64,000 nucleotides of DNA, taken from contig NZ_BBJP01000010.1 in assembly GCF_000739595.1 (NCBI RefSeq), positions 1 through 64,000 of the forward strand, in the 5' to 3' direction. Within the stretch, counting starts at the first letter, position 1; the number at the start of each line of letters is the position of its first letter. Positions 2,247 to 11,436 of this stretch are shown here, one piece after another. The translations under genes were made by a program, and so were the position numbers. This DNA is from Halorubrum halophilum (GTDB lineage: Archaea; Halobacteriota; Halobacteria; Halobacteriales; Haloferacaceae). Below the pieces are notes generated by a model that worked only from the letters and a program-made list of their open reading frames with translations, was not told the DNA's origin and made no database searches.

Positions 2247-3260
2247 TTAGAGATCATCAAGATACTCTCGTCGTTGTTCCATTTTGGCTTCCTCAGTTCT
2301 AGAGTCGTAGTGCATCGAAAGCACCTTTTCGCTGACATTAGCACGGTCACCAACCGCTTTCATTGGCCAGCCTTCCTGCAGCGCGTGTGTGATCCCGCCT
2401 CTACGAAGCGCGTGGGGGTTCACGCTTGAGGGGCATTCAGAGGCTGAATCATACGAGTTCGCCTCACACTCGTCGAGATCACGACCATGAGGACATTCCC
2501 GCGTGACCACACACGGCCTCGTATATCGATAGCAATCCCCGCGCAGTGTCGTCGTGTGGGCTCGTCCCGCTGAAGTTGAGACCAAGGGCTTCCGTCCATT
2601 CGAATCAGTCACAGCTGGGCGCGAGTGTTCCAACCAGTCGTCCAGTATCTCACAGACTTCATCCGCCAGCGCGACGAACCGTTCTCCCTTCTTTTGATTT
2701 TTCAGTGTCGTTCCGGATTTCGGACGATGCACCACTTGTAAAGATTGGTTGACTGAGTCGTAGTCATCGCAGTCTAACGCGTGAATTTCACCGACGCGCA
2801 TCATCGTGTGCCACATCAGGGTGAGGACGACGTGCGGCCGCGAGGCGTATTCGTACTTTTCGAGGTAGGTGAGGATCTGTTCTGCTCGGTCGGAGTCCAG
2901 CATCTCATCACGGATGTTATCATCACCACTCAGCGTTGGCGACAGAACCTTTGTGTGGAGATCCTGCTCAACAGCGTCGATGGACTCTAACCACTTGACG
3001 AACACTCGGAGTGTGTCCATCTGGGTCTTCTCCGTTGCCGGTGAGAGATCGCCTTCCATACGCCGCCAGATTCGGAACTCGTGTAGCTGTCGGCCCGACA
3101 GCTCGTTCAGGTTCGTGATGTTGGCTTCGTCGTTGCACCACCGGATGAAGTGCCCAAGCCGGGATTGGTGGGAGTAGATCGTCGCTTGGGAGACGTTGTT
3201 TTCTCGGTCAGCGATGTACAGTTCAAGCGCGCGTTCGGGTTCGATGGGTTCCAAACTCAT
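2247..3260 (-). CDS. Tyrosine recombinase (phage-type integrase)
   Basis: A 337-residue site-specific recombinase. The N-terminal SAM-like/core-binding domain (about 1-110) contains a typical YSHQSRLGHFIRWC stretch. The catalytic domain shows the first Arg in MMRVGEIHAL, the HxLR box in PHALRRGGITHAL and a late SMHYDSRTEEAK carrying the nucleophilic Tyr. Between the Arg and HxLR boxes is a Cys/His-containing insert (CPHGRDLDEC and a later ECP), known in haloarchaeal integrases and possibly zinc-binding. The ATG at 3260 is chosen over the upstream in-frame codon at 3326, since the latter would add a poorly conserved basic leader. It probably mobilises, or once mobilised, the AT-richer strip to its left. 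Confidence 0.85.
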   Translation of the reverse strand: MSLEPIEPERALELYIADRENNVSQATIYSHQSRLGHFIRWCNDEANITNLNELSGRQLHEFRIWRRMEGDLSPATEKTQMDTLRVFVKWLESIDAVEQDLHTKVLSPTLSGDDNIRDEMLDSDRAEQILTYLEKYEYASRPHVVLTLMWHTMMRVGEIHALDCDDYDSVNQSLQVVHRPKSGTTLKNQKKGERFVALADEVCEILDDWLEHSRPAVTDSNGRKPLVSTSAGRAHTTTLRGDCYRYTRPCVVTRECPHGRDLDECEANSYDSASECPSSVNPHALRRGGITHALQEGWPMKAVGDRANVSEKVLSMHYDSRTEEAKMEQRREYLDDL

Positions 3261-3581
3261 TTGTCGGTCCCACGCGAACCCCCGGTTGAATACCTGTTCT
3301 GAGGCGGCCGGTTTTAGCCGCCTCACGCCTCAAAGGTCGATTCGTTCGACAGTCGAACCGGAGCCTGCAGCGCCCATCCGAAATTAAGTCGGATTGGAGC
3401 AAAATAAAATCCACATCTAGAGCCGTCTACGGCACCCAATTCGGCGGATTCGCGCTTCTCAAAGTCGCCGATTTTCTGGCGACCAATTGGTTCCCAAAAA
3501 CGGCCCCTCGAAGTCGTGCGATTCCTCCGAAGATCGGGTCGTCCGCGTGGTAGCGCTCCGTTAGTGCAACGTCACGGCGAT
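3261..3581. other. Intergenic region with two hairpins beside the integrase
   Basis: No gene seen. It carries a perfect 8-bp stem (gaggcggc 3301-3308, gccgcctc 3317-3324) and a perfect 7-bp palindrome with one central base (gttcgac-a-gtcgaac, 3344-3358). Either could be a terminator or recombinase-binding DNA. No tRNA-derived attachment site is recognisable. Confidence 0.4.
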
Positions 3582-4580
3582 CTATGACGTAGTGAGCCGG
3601 CACCACGTCCCGGTCTCGTCGTTCCGGAGTCGACAGACGGCAGCGAGGACGACAGCGCTACTGACGAGCAGCGCGGCCCCGAAGATCAGCACGGTACTCG
3701 CGGTGTTGAGAATGCCGATTCCGTAGACTGCCCCGATCTTGTTCGAGGCGACGGCGACGCTTCCGGCGAGCAGCATCGCCGCGAAGTAGCCCTTAATTTC
3801 GTCTTCGTCGACGAGGCTCGTCGCCCCCGCCCCGATGCGTGCGCCGAGTGCGCTTCCGAGAAGTAGGAACGCGACGACGGGTACTGCGACGGATCCGGAC
3901 TGTGCGTACGTGAACGCGCCGAACGCTCCCGAGACCGTGATCTGGAGGATATCGGTCCCGACGGCGATCGCAGCGGGGACGCCGAGTCCGTACATCATCG
4001 CCGGCATCAGGAGGAACCCACCGCCGACGCCGAGGAACCCCGAGAGGACGCCAACGACGAGACCGACCGCGAAGATGATCGTCGCGGAGACGCGGACGCC
4101 GCCGCGTAACGTCACCATCGGCGGGATCCGTATCGACTGGACTCGATCCGCGAGGTCGCTCCCGGCTTCGTCCTCGCCCGTATTGGACCACGCGTCCCGG
4201 AGCGTGAGCAAACCGACAGCGGCCAGCAGCCCGACGTAAGCTGCGTTGATGATGAGGTCGGCCGTCCCGGTGGCTTCGAGGAGGAACACGACGCTCTTCC
4301 CGCCCTCGATGCCGAGCGTCATCGCGACCGTCATGATCGCGGCGAGCTTGTAGTCGACCTGACCGTGGTCGCGGTGGCGGAGCGCGCCGATAACGCTCGT
4401 CCCGAAGACGAACGCGAGACCGCTCCCGACGGCGACCGTCGACGGATACCCCATCACGAGCAGCGCGGGCGTCACGAGGAACGACCCGCCCATTCCGAAG
4501 AACCCGAAGAGGGTCCCGATGAGGAGCCCAAACCCGATGAACACCACCACCATCGCGAGGCTCAGGCCGAAGATGGGCAT
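3582..4580 (-). CDS. TauE/SafE-family sulfite/sulfonate exporter
   Basis: A 332-residue integral membrane protein with eight or so hydrophobic helices in two repeated halves. Each half has the glycine-rich signature of the TSUP family (GFFGMGGSFLVTPALL near residue 27 and GFLGVGGGFLLMPAMM in the middle). These proteins export small sulfur anions such as sulfite or sulfoacetate. It starts two bases after the stop of the DUF7512 gene and ends the sulfur operon. The C-terminal tail is unusually hydrophilic (CRLRNDETG). The substrate is inferred from context only. Confidence 0.85.
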   Translation of the reverse strand: MPIFGLSLAMVVVFIGFGLLIGTLFGFFGMGGSFLVTPALLVMGYPSTVAVGSGLAFVFGTSVIGALRHRDHGQVDYKLAAIMTVAMTLGIEGGKSVVFLLEATGTADLIINAAYVGLLAAVGLLTLRDAWSNTGEDEAGSDLADRVQSIRIPPMVTLRGGVRVSATIIFAVGLVVGVLSGFLGVGGGFLLMPAMMYGLGVPAAIAVGTDILQITVSGAFGAFTYAQSGSVAVPVVAFLLLGSALGARIGAGATSLVDEDEIKGYFAAMLLAGSVAVASNKIGAVYGIGILNTASTVLIFGAALLVSSAVVLAAVCRLRNDETGTWCRLTTS

Positions 4581-4582
4581 CT

Positions 4583-4732
4583 TCAGGTCCCTCCGACCGC
4601 GTCGATCACGGCTGATCCGAGGGCGCTGCTGAGCGTACCGTACACGGCGTACACGACCATCGCCTCCGTGAAGACGAATCCCACGACGGCGACAGCCTGT
4701 ACTGAACCGCTCAAACTCTCGAGTCCGAACAT
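4583..4732 (-). CDS. DUF7512-like small membrane protein
   Basis: A 49-codon gene from the ATG at 4732. The product begins MFGLESLSGS and is then almost wholly hydrophobic, with one membrane helix (about residues 11-35, including VVGFVFTEAMVVYAVYG). It sits two bases before the TauE/SafE gene. I recall this tiny protein as a constant companion of that exporter in haloarchaeal sulfur clusters, which suggests an accessory subunit. The role is unproven. Confidence 0.75.
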   Translation of the reverse strand: MFGLESLSGSVQAVAVVGFVFTEAMVVYAVYGTLSSALGSAVIDAVGGT

Positions 4733-4824
4733 GTTACGCGATCTTCTCTATTTTGTTTTGTCGTTCCATTAGCATACAATACTGCTTCCCCGCGTCGATT
4801 CCGTGTGGATGTGAGTGCATTGAA

Positions 4825-5277
4825 TTAGTTGCCTCCCGTATTATCGCCCGCGAACGAGCGGGCGTACCCGTGGGCGTACGCGCCGAGGAACATGCCTCCG
4901 ATCGCCCAGAGGATGGGATAGTTACCGACGCCGAAACTGGCGTAGGCCGCCCCGGGACAGATTCCGGAGAGCCCCCATCCGACCCCGAAGACGGTTCCGC
5001 CGACGACCACGTTCCGATCGAACTCCTTCACACGCCGGGTGTACTCGGTCGCGGTGAGCGGCGCGCGGTCGAGATAGCGCGTCGCGAGGGCGAACGTGAC
5101 GCCCGTGACGACAGCAGCACCGCCCATCACGAACAGGAGACCGAAGTCCTCGAACTGGAGGAAGTCGAGGACGACCTCCGGACGGGCCATCCCGCTGACC
5201 GCCAGTCCGAGTCCGAAGACGAGCCCCCCGACGTAGATAACGGGGAGGAACAGCGGGCTGCGGTCGCCGTCTGTCAC
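4825..5277 (-). CDS. YeeE/YedE-family sulfur transporter subunit (DUF6691 type)
   Basis: 150 residues from a GTG at 5277. That start overlaps the stop of the preceding YeeE gene in a GTGA arrangement and removes an unlikely basic leader that would otherwise be read through. It has about four membrane helices and the conserved GVGWGLSGICPGAAYASFG, whose Cys is the family's sulfur-relay residue. YeeE/YedE proteins import thiosulfate or related sulfane sulfur. With the neighbouring gene it makes a split two-part transporter, as is common in haloarchaea and many bacteria. Confidence 0.85.
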   Translation of the reverse strand: MTDGDRSPLFLPVIYVGGLVFGLGLAVSGMARPEVVLDFLQFEDFGLLFVMGGAAVVTGVTFALATRYLDRAPLTATEYTRRVKEFDRNVVVGGTVFGVGWGLSGICPGAAYASFGVGNYPILWAIGGMFLGAYAHGYARSFAGDNTGGN

Positions 5278-5774
5278 GGCGTCACCCCCAGCGCCTGGAC
5301 GAGTTGGGCGGTCCCTATCGCGAACGCCAAGAAGGTCGCGACGTTCACCAGCGAGGTGTTCGACAGCGAGCCGACGCCACAGACGCCGTGGCCCGACGTA
5401 CATCCCTTCCCGAGCCGCGTCCCGACGCCGACGAGGAAGCCGCCGCCGAGCAGCCGCCACCACTGGACATCGGTCGTCCAGATGGTCGGGTCGGGCGCGA
5501 GGAGAAGTCCCCAGACGGCCGCACCACTGACGATGCCGAGCGTGAACACGACCCGCCAGCCGCGCGACTGAACGTACGTGAACCGGTTGAACCGATCGAC
5601 GGTAGAGACGTACGAGAGCGTCGAGTCGAGGAACGTACTCGCGCCCGCGATGATTCCGGTCGCGAGATAGATGACCGCCGCGCCGAGCCCGACGAGCAAC
5701 CCGCCCAGGAGATACGGCAGTATCCCCCGCGGGAAGAGGTCGCTGACTGCGAGCAGCGGGACGAGCGTCTCCAT
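5274..5774 (-). CDS. YeeE/YedE-family sulfur transporter subunit
   Basis: 166 residues with four to five membrane helices. The conserved core GTRLGKGCTSGHGVCGVGSLS holds two cysteines thought to hand sulfur through the pore in this family. It starts two bases after the rhodanese-MBL gene and overlaps the second half-transporter by four bases, so the three are one operon. Function as a thiosulfate or sulfide-species importer is inferred from the family and from sulfur-oxidation neighbours. Confidence 0.85.
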   Translation of the reverse strand: METLVPLLAVSDLFPRGILPYLLGGLLVGLGAAVIYLATGIIAGASTFLDSTLSYVSTVDRFNRFTYVQSRGWRVVFTLGIVSGAAVWGLLLAPDPTIWTTDVQWWRLLGGGFLVGVGTRLGKGCTSGHGVCGVGSLSNTSLVNVATFLAFAIGTAQLVQALGVTP

Positions 5775-5776
5775 CG

Positions 5777-7015
5777 TTAGTTAGTCAGCGCCCCTTCGCT
5801 CGCGGCGCAGTTGTTCGGGCCGAGCTCGAGTTCGAACGCCGCTTCGTCGTCGGGGTCCTGCCGGCCGAGGTTCGTCGCGATGATCTCCTCGTAGTTCGCC
5901 GGTCGTGGCGGCATGTCGTCGACGACGAACTCGACGAACTCGTCCTCCTCCATGGTGAGCGCGTCCATCCGCTCGACCAGGTCTCCCAGCTTCGCGGTGT
6001 AGGTACCGCCGTCGTTCGGGGTCGCCGAATCACCGAAGTGGGCCGGCGCGACGACGGTGTCCTCAGGGAGCGTCAGGACCCGTTCCTGGAGGCTCTCGTA
6101 GAGGGTCCGGGCCGCGTCTCCCGCCGCCTCGGGGTCTTCGAGATCGGGGCGCGCAACGCTCTCCGTGAAGAGGCCGTCGCCCGTGAACAGAACGTCACCG
6201 ACTTTGTACGCCGTCATCCCGGTCGTGTGCCCGGGCGTGGGAATAACTTCGATTTCGATGTCACCAACCGAAAGGGTGTCTCCACCAGCGACCGTCTCGT
6301 ACGGTTGCTCGTAATCGACACCGCGCTGGACAGCCGCGTCCGGGAGGGCTGCCGTCGCGCCGGTGTCGTCGGCAAGATCGCGAATCCCGGAGATGTGATC
6401 GGCGTGAATGTGCGTGTCGAGCGCGTAGATCAGATCGGCACCCAGCGCCCGGGCGTCTTGAACGTACTCGTCGGTAAACGCGCGAAGCGGATCGATAACC
6501 GCCGCCTCGCCGTCCGAGACGACGAGGTACGCAAGGCAGCCGCTAGACGGTCGTCGGTACTGAGCGATGGTCGCCCGGCGGCCACCAGAACCCTTCGCGT
6601 TCTGGGCGGCTATCGAATCGCTTCGCGGTTCGCGAACGTCGACGTCGAGTTCCTGGTACTCGTAGATTCCCGCCCAGCCTTTCATACCGCGTTCGAGGTG
6701 ATCCACATCGTACCCCTCCTCGTCGAGACGCTCGGCGACGAGCTCGCTCGATCCGCCTTTCACACAGAGAACCGTAACGCGCCGGTCGTCGGGAAGCTCC
6801 GCCTGAAGCTCCTCGGGAACACCGTCGAGCAACTGAAAGTACGGACGATTCACGATCTCGACGTTCTCGCCGTCGATGTGCCACTCTTCGAAGTCACCCT
6901 CCGAGCGGGCGTCGAGTATGAACACGCCCTCACCGCCGTCGATGCGGTCTTTCAGTTCGGTTGGCGTCGTCGATGCGATCGTTTCGTCCGGGTCGGACTC
7001 TCTCCTGTCGGTCAT
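5777..7015 (-). CDS. Rhodanese-MBL fusion, persulfide dioxygenase-like
   Basis: About 412 residues. The N-terminal rhodanese domain (1-125) includes ILDARSEGDFEEWHIDG and the active-site loop CVKGGSS. The metallo-beta-lactamase domain (about 145-380) has the metal motif THIHADHISG, then PTPGHTTGM and LFTGDGLF, as in ETHE1-type persulfide dioxygenases. The fusion would transfer and oxidise sulfane sulfur, feeding sulfite to the TauE/SafE exporter at the end of the same operon. Two ATGs are possible (7027 and 7015); I prefer 7015. The region upstream is only 35 bp from the beheaded tusA, so its usual promoter region may be affected by that deletion. Confidence 0.85.
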   Translation of the reverse strand: MTDRRESDPDETIASTTPTELKDRIDGGEGVFILDARSEGDFEEWHIDGENVEIVNRPYFQLLDGVPEELQAELPDDRRVTVLCVKGGSSELVAERLDEEGYDVDHLERGMKGWAGIYEYQELDVDVREPRSDSIAAQNAKGSGGRRATIAQYRRPSSGCLAYLVVSDGEAAVIDPLRAFTDEYVQDARALGADLIYALDTHIHADHISGIRDLADDTGATAALPDAAVQRGVDYEQPYETVAGGDTLSVGDIEIEVIPTPGHTTGMTAYKVGDVLFTGDGLFTESVARPDLEDPEAAGDAARTLYESLQERVLTLPEDTVVAPAHFGDSATPNDGGTYTAKLGDLVERMDALTMEEDEFVEFVVDDMPPRPANYEEIIATNLGRQDPDDEAAFELELGPNNCAASEGALTN

Positions 7016-7050
7016 CGTCACTCCCATCTACTTACTGTTCGCAAGGGAGT

Positions 7051-7155
7051 ATGAGCGACCTCCGCGGTTGGGCCGACACCACGGACGGCGTTGAACTCGC
7101 TGACCAGAAGGAGGGCGACGACGTGTACACGCACTACGTGCGCAAGACCGAGTGA
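7051..7155 (+). pseudogene. Truncated TusA-like sulfurtransferase (C-terminal third only)
   Basis: The reading begins at an ATG inside a recognisable TusA core: GSMSDLRGWADTTDGVEL followed by DDVYTHYVRKTE, which is the last third of the haloarchaeal TusA fold. The N-terminal half, which should contain the CPxP active-site cysteine, is absent. In-frame sequence upstream is unrelated and runs into the divergent rhodanese-MBL gene. The remaining 34 residues cannot form the normal sulfur carrier. This looks like a deletion of the 5' end and promoter. A short protein could still be made from this ATG. Confidence 0.65.
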
Positions 7156-7157
7156 AG

Positions 7158-7730
7158 ATGAGTACGGACACCCCTGACGCGTCACCCGACGAGGCGCCCT
7201 CGCGTGCAGAACTGGCCGCACGCATCGCCGAACTCGAGGATGCGCTCGGTGAGGCCACCGCCGAGGAAGACGGCAAGAAAATGAGCATTATTGCCACGAA
7301 GGGGACGCTCGACATGGCGTACCCGCCGCTCATCCTCGCGAGCACGGCCGCCGCGTTCGGCTACGACGTAACGGTCTTCCACACGTTCTGGGGACTGGAC
7401 ATCCTCCACGAGGAACGCTCGAAGAACCTGAAGCTGAGTTCGGTCGGCAACCCCAACACGCCAGTCCCGAACGCCGTCGCCGCGCTCCCCGGGATGGACC
7501 GCCTGACGACGATGCTGATGGAGAAGAAGATCGAGGACAACGATACGGCCACGGTCGGGGAACTCATCGACACGTCCCTCGAGATGGGCGTCGAGTTCCA
7601 GGCCTGTCAGATGACCATCGACCTGATGGACTACGACGAGGACGACTTCTACGACGGCGTGACGACGGGCGTCGGTGCCGCCACGGCGATTCGGGATTTG
7701 GCTGACGCCGACATCCAACTCCTCATCTGA
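7158..7730 (+). CDS. DsrE/DsrF/DrsH-like sulfur-relay protein
   Basis: 190 residues. An acidic, helical N-terminal segment (about 1-40) precedes the DsrE fold, with MSIIATKGTLDMAYPPL, FGYDVTVFHTFWGLDIL and the conserved Cys in VEFQACQMTIDLM. DsrE-type proteins bind persulfide and pass sulfur with TusA partners. It follows the tusA remnant directly. A GTG at 7152 would overlap that stop, but the ATG at 7158 gives the usual N-terminus. Its normal partner is broken here, so it may rely on another TusA elsewhere. Confidence 0.85.
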   Translation: MSTDTPDASPDEAPSRAELAARIAELEDALGEATAEEDGKKMSIIATKGTLDMAYPPLILASTAAAFGYDVTVFHTFWGLDILHEERSKNLKLSSVGNPNTPVPNAVAALPGMDRLTTMLMEKKIEDNDTATVGELIDTSLEMGVEFQACQMTIDLMDYDEDDFYDGVTTGVGAATAIRDLADADIQLLI

Positions 7731-7957
7731 CGCGGACCATTCTTCGCTCTCGATAGGTTCGAGGCAAGGACCGATCGAACTCCCCTGGTGCTGTGGCTTC
7801 GACCCGAATTTGTATATTTTAAACAATATCCATCAGCTCCCCCACTAACGGCTCTACAAAAACGACACGCGTATTTCACAGACGTATCGCTCAGTAACCG
7901 TTCTATCTGTGGCGATCGGGCGTAACTCCTATTTGTAGGGAAGTTGTATTGTAGAGT

Positions 7958-8353
7958 ATGTCCTATACTATCGACAAACGAGTCGAGGGCGAGTTCGACG
8001 AAGTTATCGATCGAACCGCGGATGCGTTGTCTGCGGAGGGGTTCGGGATTCTCTCTGACATCGATGTTCAACAGACGTTCAAGAAGAAACTGGACGAAGA
8101 GTTTCGGCAGTACCGGATCCTCGGTGCGTGCAACCCGTCGCTTGCACGGGAGGCCCTCGAAGAGGAACTACAGTTGGGGACGCTCCTCCCATGTAACGTC
8201 GTCGTCTACGAGACGGACGGTGGAGAGATCGGCGTGAGCGCCGTCGATCCGACGGTCATGCTCGCGGTGGCCGACAACCCCGAGTTGGACTCGATCGCAG
8301 TAGACGTGCGCGAGCGGTTCGAACGCGTCCTCGACGAGCTTCCGGAAGCCTAA
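7958..8353 (+). CDS. DUF302 domain protein
   Basis: 131 residues covering a single DUF302 domain: DVQQTFKKKLDEEF, YRILGACNPSLAREAL and LLPCNVVVYE are the characteristic blocks, including the conserved Cys in the last. DUF302 proteins are frequent in sulfur-oxidising and heavy-metal contexts and may bind heme or metals; the biochemical role is unsettled. It lies 230 bp after the DsrE-like gene on the same strand, with its own AT-rich upstream region, and is probably a functional part of the sulfur cluster. Confidence 0.85.
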   Translation: MSYTIDKRVEGEFDEVIDRTADALSAEGFGILSDIDVQQTFKKKLDEEFRQYRILGACNPSLAREALEEELQLGTLLPCNVVVYETDGGEIGVSAVDPTVMLAVADNPELDSIAVDVRERFERVLDELPEA

Positions 8354-10401: not shown

Positions 10402-11436
10402 CTATCCCAGCAGCCGATATACGTTCGCTTCGTACGTCTCGCGCACTTGGTCACCCCAGTTGTGGGTGTACGTGTCGATCACGTCGTCGGCGACGTCGCC
10501 GCGGAGATATTTGACGACACCGCGGTCACCCGTCCGGTCCCGAAGGTGTGTCGTGAAGAAGTGCCGGAAGTAGTGGGGAGTAACGTTCTCGGCGGCGCCT
10601 CCGCCCGTACGGTACCACCCCGCGCCGCGGGCGTAGCGTTCGACAGCGTGTCTGACCGCTTGGGGGTCGAGCCGCTCACCCCACCCCTCCGTGGTGCCGA
10701 CGAACAGGGGCTCTGCGGCGGAGGCTCCGTCCGGGCGTACGGCGAGCCACCGTTTCAAGGTCCGCGCCAACTCGTCGTCGACCGGGATCACGGTGGCTCG
10801 CTTGCGTTTGTTCGAGGCGGTGCGGACCTCCCCGTTCAGCTCCTCGCCTACCGTCGCGTCCGGGGTGACGTACAGCGAGTTCGGCCGATCCGCGAGGGCG
10901 GGTCGCGTTCCCAGTGCGAACGCCCTTTCGAGTTCGCCATCGTCGATCGCGAGATCGCGGAGATCGAGGTTACAGAGCTCCCCGACTCGCATCCCGGTCT
11001 TTAACAGCGTGACGACGAGCGCGCGGTGAAGGGGATGGCGAATGCCGGCGACGAACTCGCGCATCGCGGGGATCGGGATGTCTCGTCGCGCCGGGTCCTT
11101 ATCGACCGTCTCGTCCATCTCTTCCATCACGAGCGTCATCGGGTTCCCCTCGAAAACACCGACTTCGGTCATGTATCCGTAGAACCGGTGGAGGTACGCC
11201 GCGTACGTCGCCACCGTGCTGTCGGCCACGTCGCCGCGCAGCGAGTGGACGAACGCCATGCAGTCGCGATGGGTTGCCGACGATGATGTCGTCTCCGGAT
11301 CGAGAAACGATTCGAACCGACGGAGCACGCGCTCGTAGGAATCACGGGTTCGTTCGGTTTTCCCGTGGTAGGTGAGGTCCTCGATGAAGTACGCGATCGG
11401 ATCGTCGACTTCCGCGGGGGCTCGCGTGCTACTCAT
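10402..11436 (-). CDS. XerC/D-like tyrosine recombinase
   Basis: 344 residues. The N-terminal core-binding domain (about 10-110) carries YERVLRRFESFL. The catalytic domain has the Arg in KTGMRVGELCNLDLRDL, an HxxR box in HYFRHFFTTHLRD and a terminal DTYTHNWGDQ with the Tyr. The gene overlaps the DUF5805 gene by eight bases. The pair is compact and codon-adapted, like a resident chromosomal gene rather than a recent arrival. It could serve dimer resolution or an old integrated element; no attachment site is evident. Confidence 0.85.
   Translation of the reverse strand: MSSTRAPAEVDDPIAYFIEDLTYHGKTERTRDSYERVLRRFESFLDPETTSSSATHRDCMAFVHSLRGDVADSTVATYAAYLHRFYGYMTEVGVFEGNPMTLVMEEMDETVDKDPARRDIPIPAMREFVAGIRHPLHRALVVTLLKTGMRVGELCNLDLRDLAIDDGELERAFALGTRPALADRPNSLYVTPDATVGEELNGEVRTASNKRKRATVIPVDDELARTLKRWLAVRPDGASAAEPLFVGTTEGWGERLDPQAVRHAVERYARGAGWYRTGGGAAENVTPHYFRHFFTTHLRDRTGDRGVVKYLRGDVADDVIDTYTHNWGDQVRETYEANVYRLLG

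Follow-up and report, generated by a model that had tools for sequence, protein, structure and literature searches.

One of the closest described systems is the dsrE3A-dsrE2B-tusA relay of Metallosphaera cuprina (PMC4175335), which resembles the locus studied here in that archaeal DsrE and TusA partners are encoded together. TusA of that relay has an essential cysteine, on which both its loading with thiosulfate and its binding to the transfer partner DsrE3A depend, and DsrE2B reacted with none of the tested compounds (PMC4175335). Our locus lies in a 64,000-nucleotide stretch of DNA (the window) from contig C94 (79,008 bases) of a 3.68-Mb haloarchaeal genome in 103 contigs. It differs from the M. 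cuprina relay in that what is left of its tusA lacks the cysteine, and in that none of the eight cluster genes searched is Hdr-like. Haloarchaeal clusters of the mbl/tusA-(dsrE)-dsrE2 type, with a TusA of family PF01206, share with the window 36 codons of tusA, their place before dsrE2 and a rhodanese–metallo-beta-lactamase (MBL) gene, mbl, on the opposite strand; unlike their tusA, the remnant in the window has lost codons 1-44 and with them CPxP. By family, intact clusters are predicted to take up thiosulfate or a similar compound and to pass sulfane sulfur over rhodanese, TusA and DsrE2; the MBL domain would oxidise persulfide, and sulfite would be exported. Among the papers listed by full-text literature searches, none, judged by title and the start of the abstract, deals with this haloarchaeal cluster.

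Table 1. Features of the sulfur cluster in the window
Feature	Coordinates	Strand	Basis and remarks
TauE/SafE sulfite exporter family gene	3582..4580	-	Pfam TauE, E 5.1e-43
DUF6691 / second YeeE/YedE-type half	4825..5277	-	Pfam; start inferred from annotated relatives
YeeE/YedE-type transporter half (Sulf_transp)	5274..5774	-	Pfam; same order in three annotated plasmids
Rhodanese + MBL fusion (mbl), persulfide-dioxygenase-like, intact	5777..7027	-	Pfam Rhodanese, Lactamase_B
Deletion junction	7044..7045		Net loss 306-309 bp versus L150, L004 and L151; microhomology at most ~1 bp
tusA remnant	7045..7155	+	Codons 45-80 and stop of an 80-codon tusA; translation, 14-relative alignment, blastn to L150/L004/L151
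dsrE2 (DsrE/DsrF/DrsH-like), intact	7158..7730	+	Pfam DrsE_2, E 9.2e-49
DUF302 gene	7958..8353	+	Pfam; also downstream of dsrE2 in 2 of 3 annotated relatives

The two genes beside the remnant, mbl and dsrE2, are complete (Table 1). The downstream DsrE partner had been called intact, and dsrE2 is indeed open and full length, its ATG lying 2 nt after the stop codon of the remnant (7153-7155); against the NCBIfam equivalog SulfCarrDsrE2 it scores 156.5 bits, below the cut-off of 210. The rhodanese and MBL domains of the opposite gene are carried on one chain, as a fusion demands; its score against the NCBIfam model for the bifunctional sulfur transferase/dioxygenase Blh (59.2 bits) falls short of the cut-off of 625. 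This gene could also start at 7015, where a second ATG lies in frame. Among the PDB relatives of its MBL part are ETHE1 and BpPRF, and a persulfide dioxygenase role is predicted. A 49-codon frame on the minus strand (4583-4732) agrees in place and size with a hypothetical gene that plasmid relatives have annotated between their DUF6691 and TauE genes.

The original prediction read a 34-residue frame at 7051-7155 as the last third of TusA, with the CPxP half gone. The position is exact: the frame MSDLRGW...YVRKTE runs on the plus strand from an internal ATG at 7051. With the GS preceding that ATG the remnant comprises 36 codons, so that it is a C-terminal part of TusA as proposed, but makes up ~45% of the protein (36/80 codons) rather than a third. 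It is 58-91% identical, over matched residues, to the C-terminal part of relatives' TusA, and a full TusA used as query finds it with an E value of 2.8e-16 (82% over residues 43-80); this homology, together with synteny, identifies it as a descendant of tusA. The loss of the CPxP half also holds, for the cysteine motif is absent from 7045-7155. Pfam and NCBIfam searches of the fragment returned no family, and a PF01206 search of the genome itself (E up to 0.001) hit three other places and not the remnant, which thus has neither of the marks of a functional TusA, CPxP motif and PF01206 match. Three of the 34 residues are unseen in 86 homologues, but the same count is reached by two of the 86, and the unusual residues are only suggestive.

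Related loci were gathered with a DsrE2 query (best 80 of 243), by cluster-DNA searches in 59, 52 and 391 genomes (the window's own included; up to 30 loci each) and by an MBL-protein search of plasmids (543 matching records, 30 of them listed and three of these taken for comparison); ten further loci are stretches of the window's own genome. Of the resulting 180 loci, 124 are distinct and read through to a CPxP TusA, among them a second copy in the same genome (contig C72). Another 48 are duplicates over a 402-base stretch of loci in that count (including two further copies of the window and two of C72), six, all from the window's genome, have no such TusA match, and two lack CPxP: the window, and L041, whose contig begins at about that point. 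The window is therefore the only locus truncated inside a contig. The loci fall into two cluster types, clade A (MBL ~55-62% identical to that of the window) and clade B (65-80%), which are split with 100/100 support in an MBL tree that places the window in clade B. The 55 rows of this tree are the window, 19 hand-picked clade-A rows and 35 clade-B loci, which are all of the 37 except L150 and L160, left out because they have no full DsrE2. In L037, L046, L053, L054, L151, L152, L154 and others, ~390 bp separate tusA from dsrE2, an interval that is a small DsrE-family gene in two annotated examples (L178, L179); the window and L004 are without it.

A deletion had been proposed as the cause of the truncation, with alignment to intact tusA-dsrE loci of relatives as the check. 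Such alignment puts both ends of the missing piece at 7044/7045, as a single interval relative to syntenic relatives, which carry a full tusA and a ~190-bp divergent intergenic region at the matching spot. By blastn and subtraction, 306 bases are missing there versus L150, 309 versus L004 and 307 versus L151, and a MAFFT alignment of 14 relatives breaks at the same position. Measured against the 80-codon tusA of L150, codons 1-44 have gone, the CPxP cysteine among them, and so has the intergenic region. Blastn matches to L150 cover 4275-7037 (84%) and 7045-7728 (86%), and those to L004 cover 3578-7044 (82%), 7044-7746 (87%) and 7913-8352 (80%); the missing piece aside, positions 4275-7728 of the window run colinear with L150, and positions 3578-8352 with L004. 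L004 also has ~320 extra bases between dsrE2 and DUF302, and in L151 additional sequence separates tusA from dsrE2. The distance between the N-terminus of MBL and the codon equivalent to ATG 7051 is 319-342 bp in 37 clade-B loci (329-332 bp in 30 of them) and 23 in the window, spacings that are extrapolated from BLAST starts, with L045 (partial MBL) left out. The short gap to the opposite-strand gene that had been noted is accordingly 23 bp from ATG 7027, or 35 bp if ATG 7015 is the start. The junction has no exact match among viral contigs, a scope that says nothing on cellular relatives.

The missing segment would also have carried the core promoters of tusA and of the rhodanese-MBL gene, in line with the earlier claim that both divergent promoters went with the deletion; the support here comes from sequence. 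In L150 the segment (313 bases) has 48% GC and seven A/T runs of 5 or more, while window positions 6941-7160 contain no such run. An AATAAG/A block stands beside mbl in 33 of the 37 clade-B loci, mostly 14-17 bp from the MBL start, and its position makes it a putative MBL TATA element. Since it occurs in only 7/82 clade-A loci, and at other positions, we regard it as a clade-B feature. The block is absent from window positions 6991-7160, as the window breaks off at the CAA that directly precedes it. The stretch 6900-7050 and the ~150 nt upstream of each arm contain no 8-mer in which G/C occurs once or not at all; the evidence is weak, given a window average of only ~1.1 per 150 nt. A CCAATATTGG-like pattern is found in 28 of the 37 clade-B loci, and we give it little weight because only ~17 of the 28 sit before tusA.

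Neither mbl nor dsrE2 has a frameshift or stop, and both keep their domains. Across 15 gene-by-trio tests (N versus S branch counts) there was no consistent excess of amino-acid changes in either gene, so that these results do not demonstrate decay of the two arms and are set against the reading that we favour below. The ten tests with L150 as sister gave Fisher p values of 0.27 or more, and two of the 15, both with L004 as sister, fell below 0.05 uncorrected: with L151 as outgroup, both mbl (p 0.023) and dsrE2 (p 0.039) had a raised N/S. Only 106 dsrE2 codons were usable against L150, because its dsrE2 frame breaks. Of the 407 residues of the window's MBL protein, 21 are unseen in 114 homologues; when 110 homologues were scored in turn the maximum was 27, and two others also stood at 21. 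For DsrE2 the count is 1/191. L150 (genome G356), the closest relative cluster by DNA, has an intact tusA and a dsrE2 broken after about codon 100, which is either independent decay of that arm or a sequencing indel. In the DsrE2 tree the window and L004 group with rows of clade A (92/93, which does not reach the tool's star), a hint that dsrE2 may have been exchanged between cluster types.

Clade-B clusters are rarely seen in the genus. Among 52 of its genomes the best match after the window, in G032, scores 703 bits (73% over most of mbl) and the next 452 bits, with the others at 66-69% over most of mbl or 68-72% in pieces; of the 30 genus loci kept, only the window and G032 belong to clade B by protein. 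Clade-B relatives are found on plasmids, but the MBL-protein search covered plasmids only, and G356 has the cluster ~1.8 Mb into its contig 1. Two genes of the phage-integrase family (tyrosine recombinases; 2247-3326 and 10402-11436) flank the sulfur cluster, which may thus sit on a mobile island. The few clade-B loci seen in the genus, the plasmid relatives and the flanking integrases make a horizontal acquisition of the cluster plausible.

It had been suggested that the pathway might use a TusA from elsewhere, and a second tusA in the genome was sought. At least the supply exists: besides the remnant, the genome encodes three CPxP TusAs. One belongs to an intact paralogous mbl-tusA-dsrE2 set of clade A, at about C72:35167-37429, in which mbl is divergent from tusA-dsrE2, the TusA is a full CPMP protein and the intergenic region is intact; the layout is that of the window, and of the two only the C72 set has retained both tusA and the region before it. 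Its MBL protein is 61-65% identical to the window's, and its DNA 84% over 7045-7728. Another TusA (CPGP) is encoded at C72:30637-30852, adjoining a sulfide:quinone-oxidoreductase-like frame, and a CPYP TusA at C93:1305-1523 is followed by a rhodanese-like frame (both neighbours named by eye). A TusA protein search of the genome hit four places, one being the remnant and none a second clade-B TusA. The missing segment, taken from L150, likewise has no match in the window's genome, while all five other genomes tried do match: G356 (the source of the query), G133, G342, G334 and G032, three of the latter four over partial length. These five are the controls that give the negative result its weight. 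The missing half was thus not found on another contig.

The earlier deletion interpretation of the locus is thus supported, and the best reading is a pseudogene specific to this lineage, within a sulfur cluster that is redundant and possibly mobile. We consider it very probable that tusA is dead. A single deletion of ~307 bp would have taken codons 1-44 and the divergent intergenic region from an extra clade-B sulfur set, and the loss would be tolerated because TusA is encoded elsewhere, the C72 set and the further TusAs presumably acting in trans. The intact mbl and dsrE2 would then probably be without their native promoters and so be silent, expressed at a low level or read from promoters present by chance. 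An assembly artefact, in which the cell has an intact tusA and the assembler dropped the ~307 bp, perhaps by way of the C72 paralogue, seems to us quite unlikely. The fragmented assembly and the similarity of that paralogue over 7045-7728 would allow it; the remnant, however, has the residues of clade B (SDLRGWADTTDGVEL, against SDIDGWASGTGGIEL in the C72 copy), genes to its left and right are ordered as in clade-B L004 and L150, and no match to the missing piece was found on another contig. With clade-B residues and clade-B order on both sides the locus has no appearance of a chimera with the C72 paralogue, an idea that we rejected.

A little less probable still is that the remnant remains in use, as a 34-residue microprotein or as a leader frame translationally coupled to dsrE2. 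Its frame is open, with a GGGAG stretch immediately 5' of ATG 7051, and the 2-nt gap to dsrE2 has been kept, so that translation signals of dsrE2 may lie within it. Against this, it lacks the CPxP cysteine, is less than half of the protein and matches no family, has residues unseen in homologues, takes a form absent from all relatives examined and, as a weak point, has no AT-rich 8-mer of the kind sought upstream. Lower again we rate the notion that the deletion rewired the cluster instead of killing it, with the C72 TusA serving it, the mbl and dsrE2 arms kept, a 34-codon leader in place of tusA carrying the translation signals of dsrE2 and the promoters of the two arms lying inside each other. 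That a conserved short TusA is typical of the cluster has a negligible chance: such a form in relatives had been set as the observation that would overturn the truncation, none of the 124 distinct readable loci has it, and with no point found in its favour we reject it.

The locus offers a clean case, found in nature, of a sulfur-relay cluster without its carrier protein, in which the partners are intact and which has a complete paralogous cluster alongside. It could thereby provide a natural experiment on the ability of DsrE2 and the rhodanese-MBL enzyme to work with a TusA supplied from elsewhere. In other respects the gene loss is an ordinary one, in a cluster that is redundant and possibly mobile.
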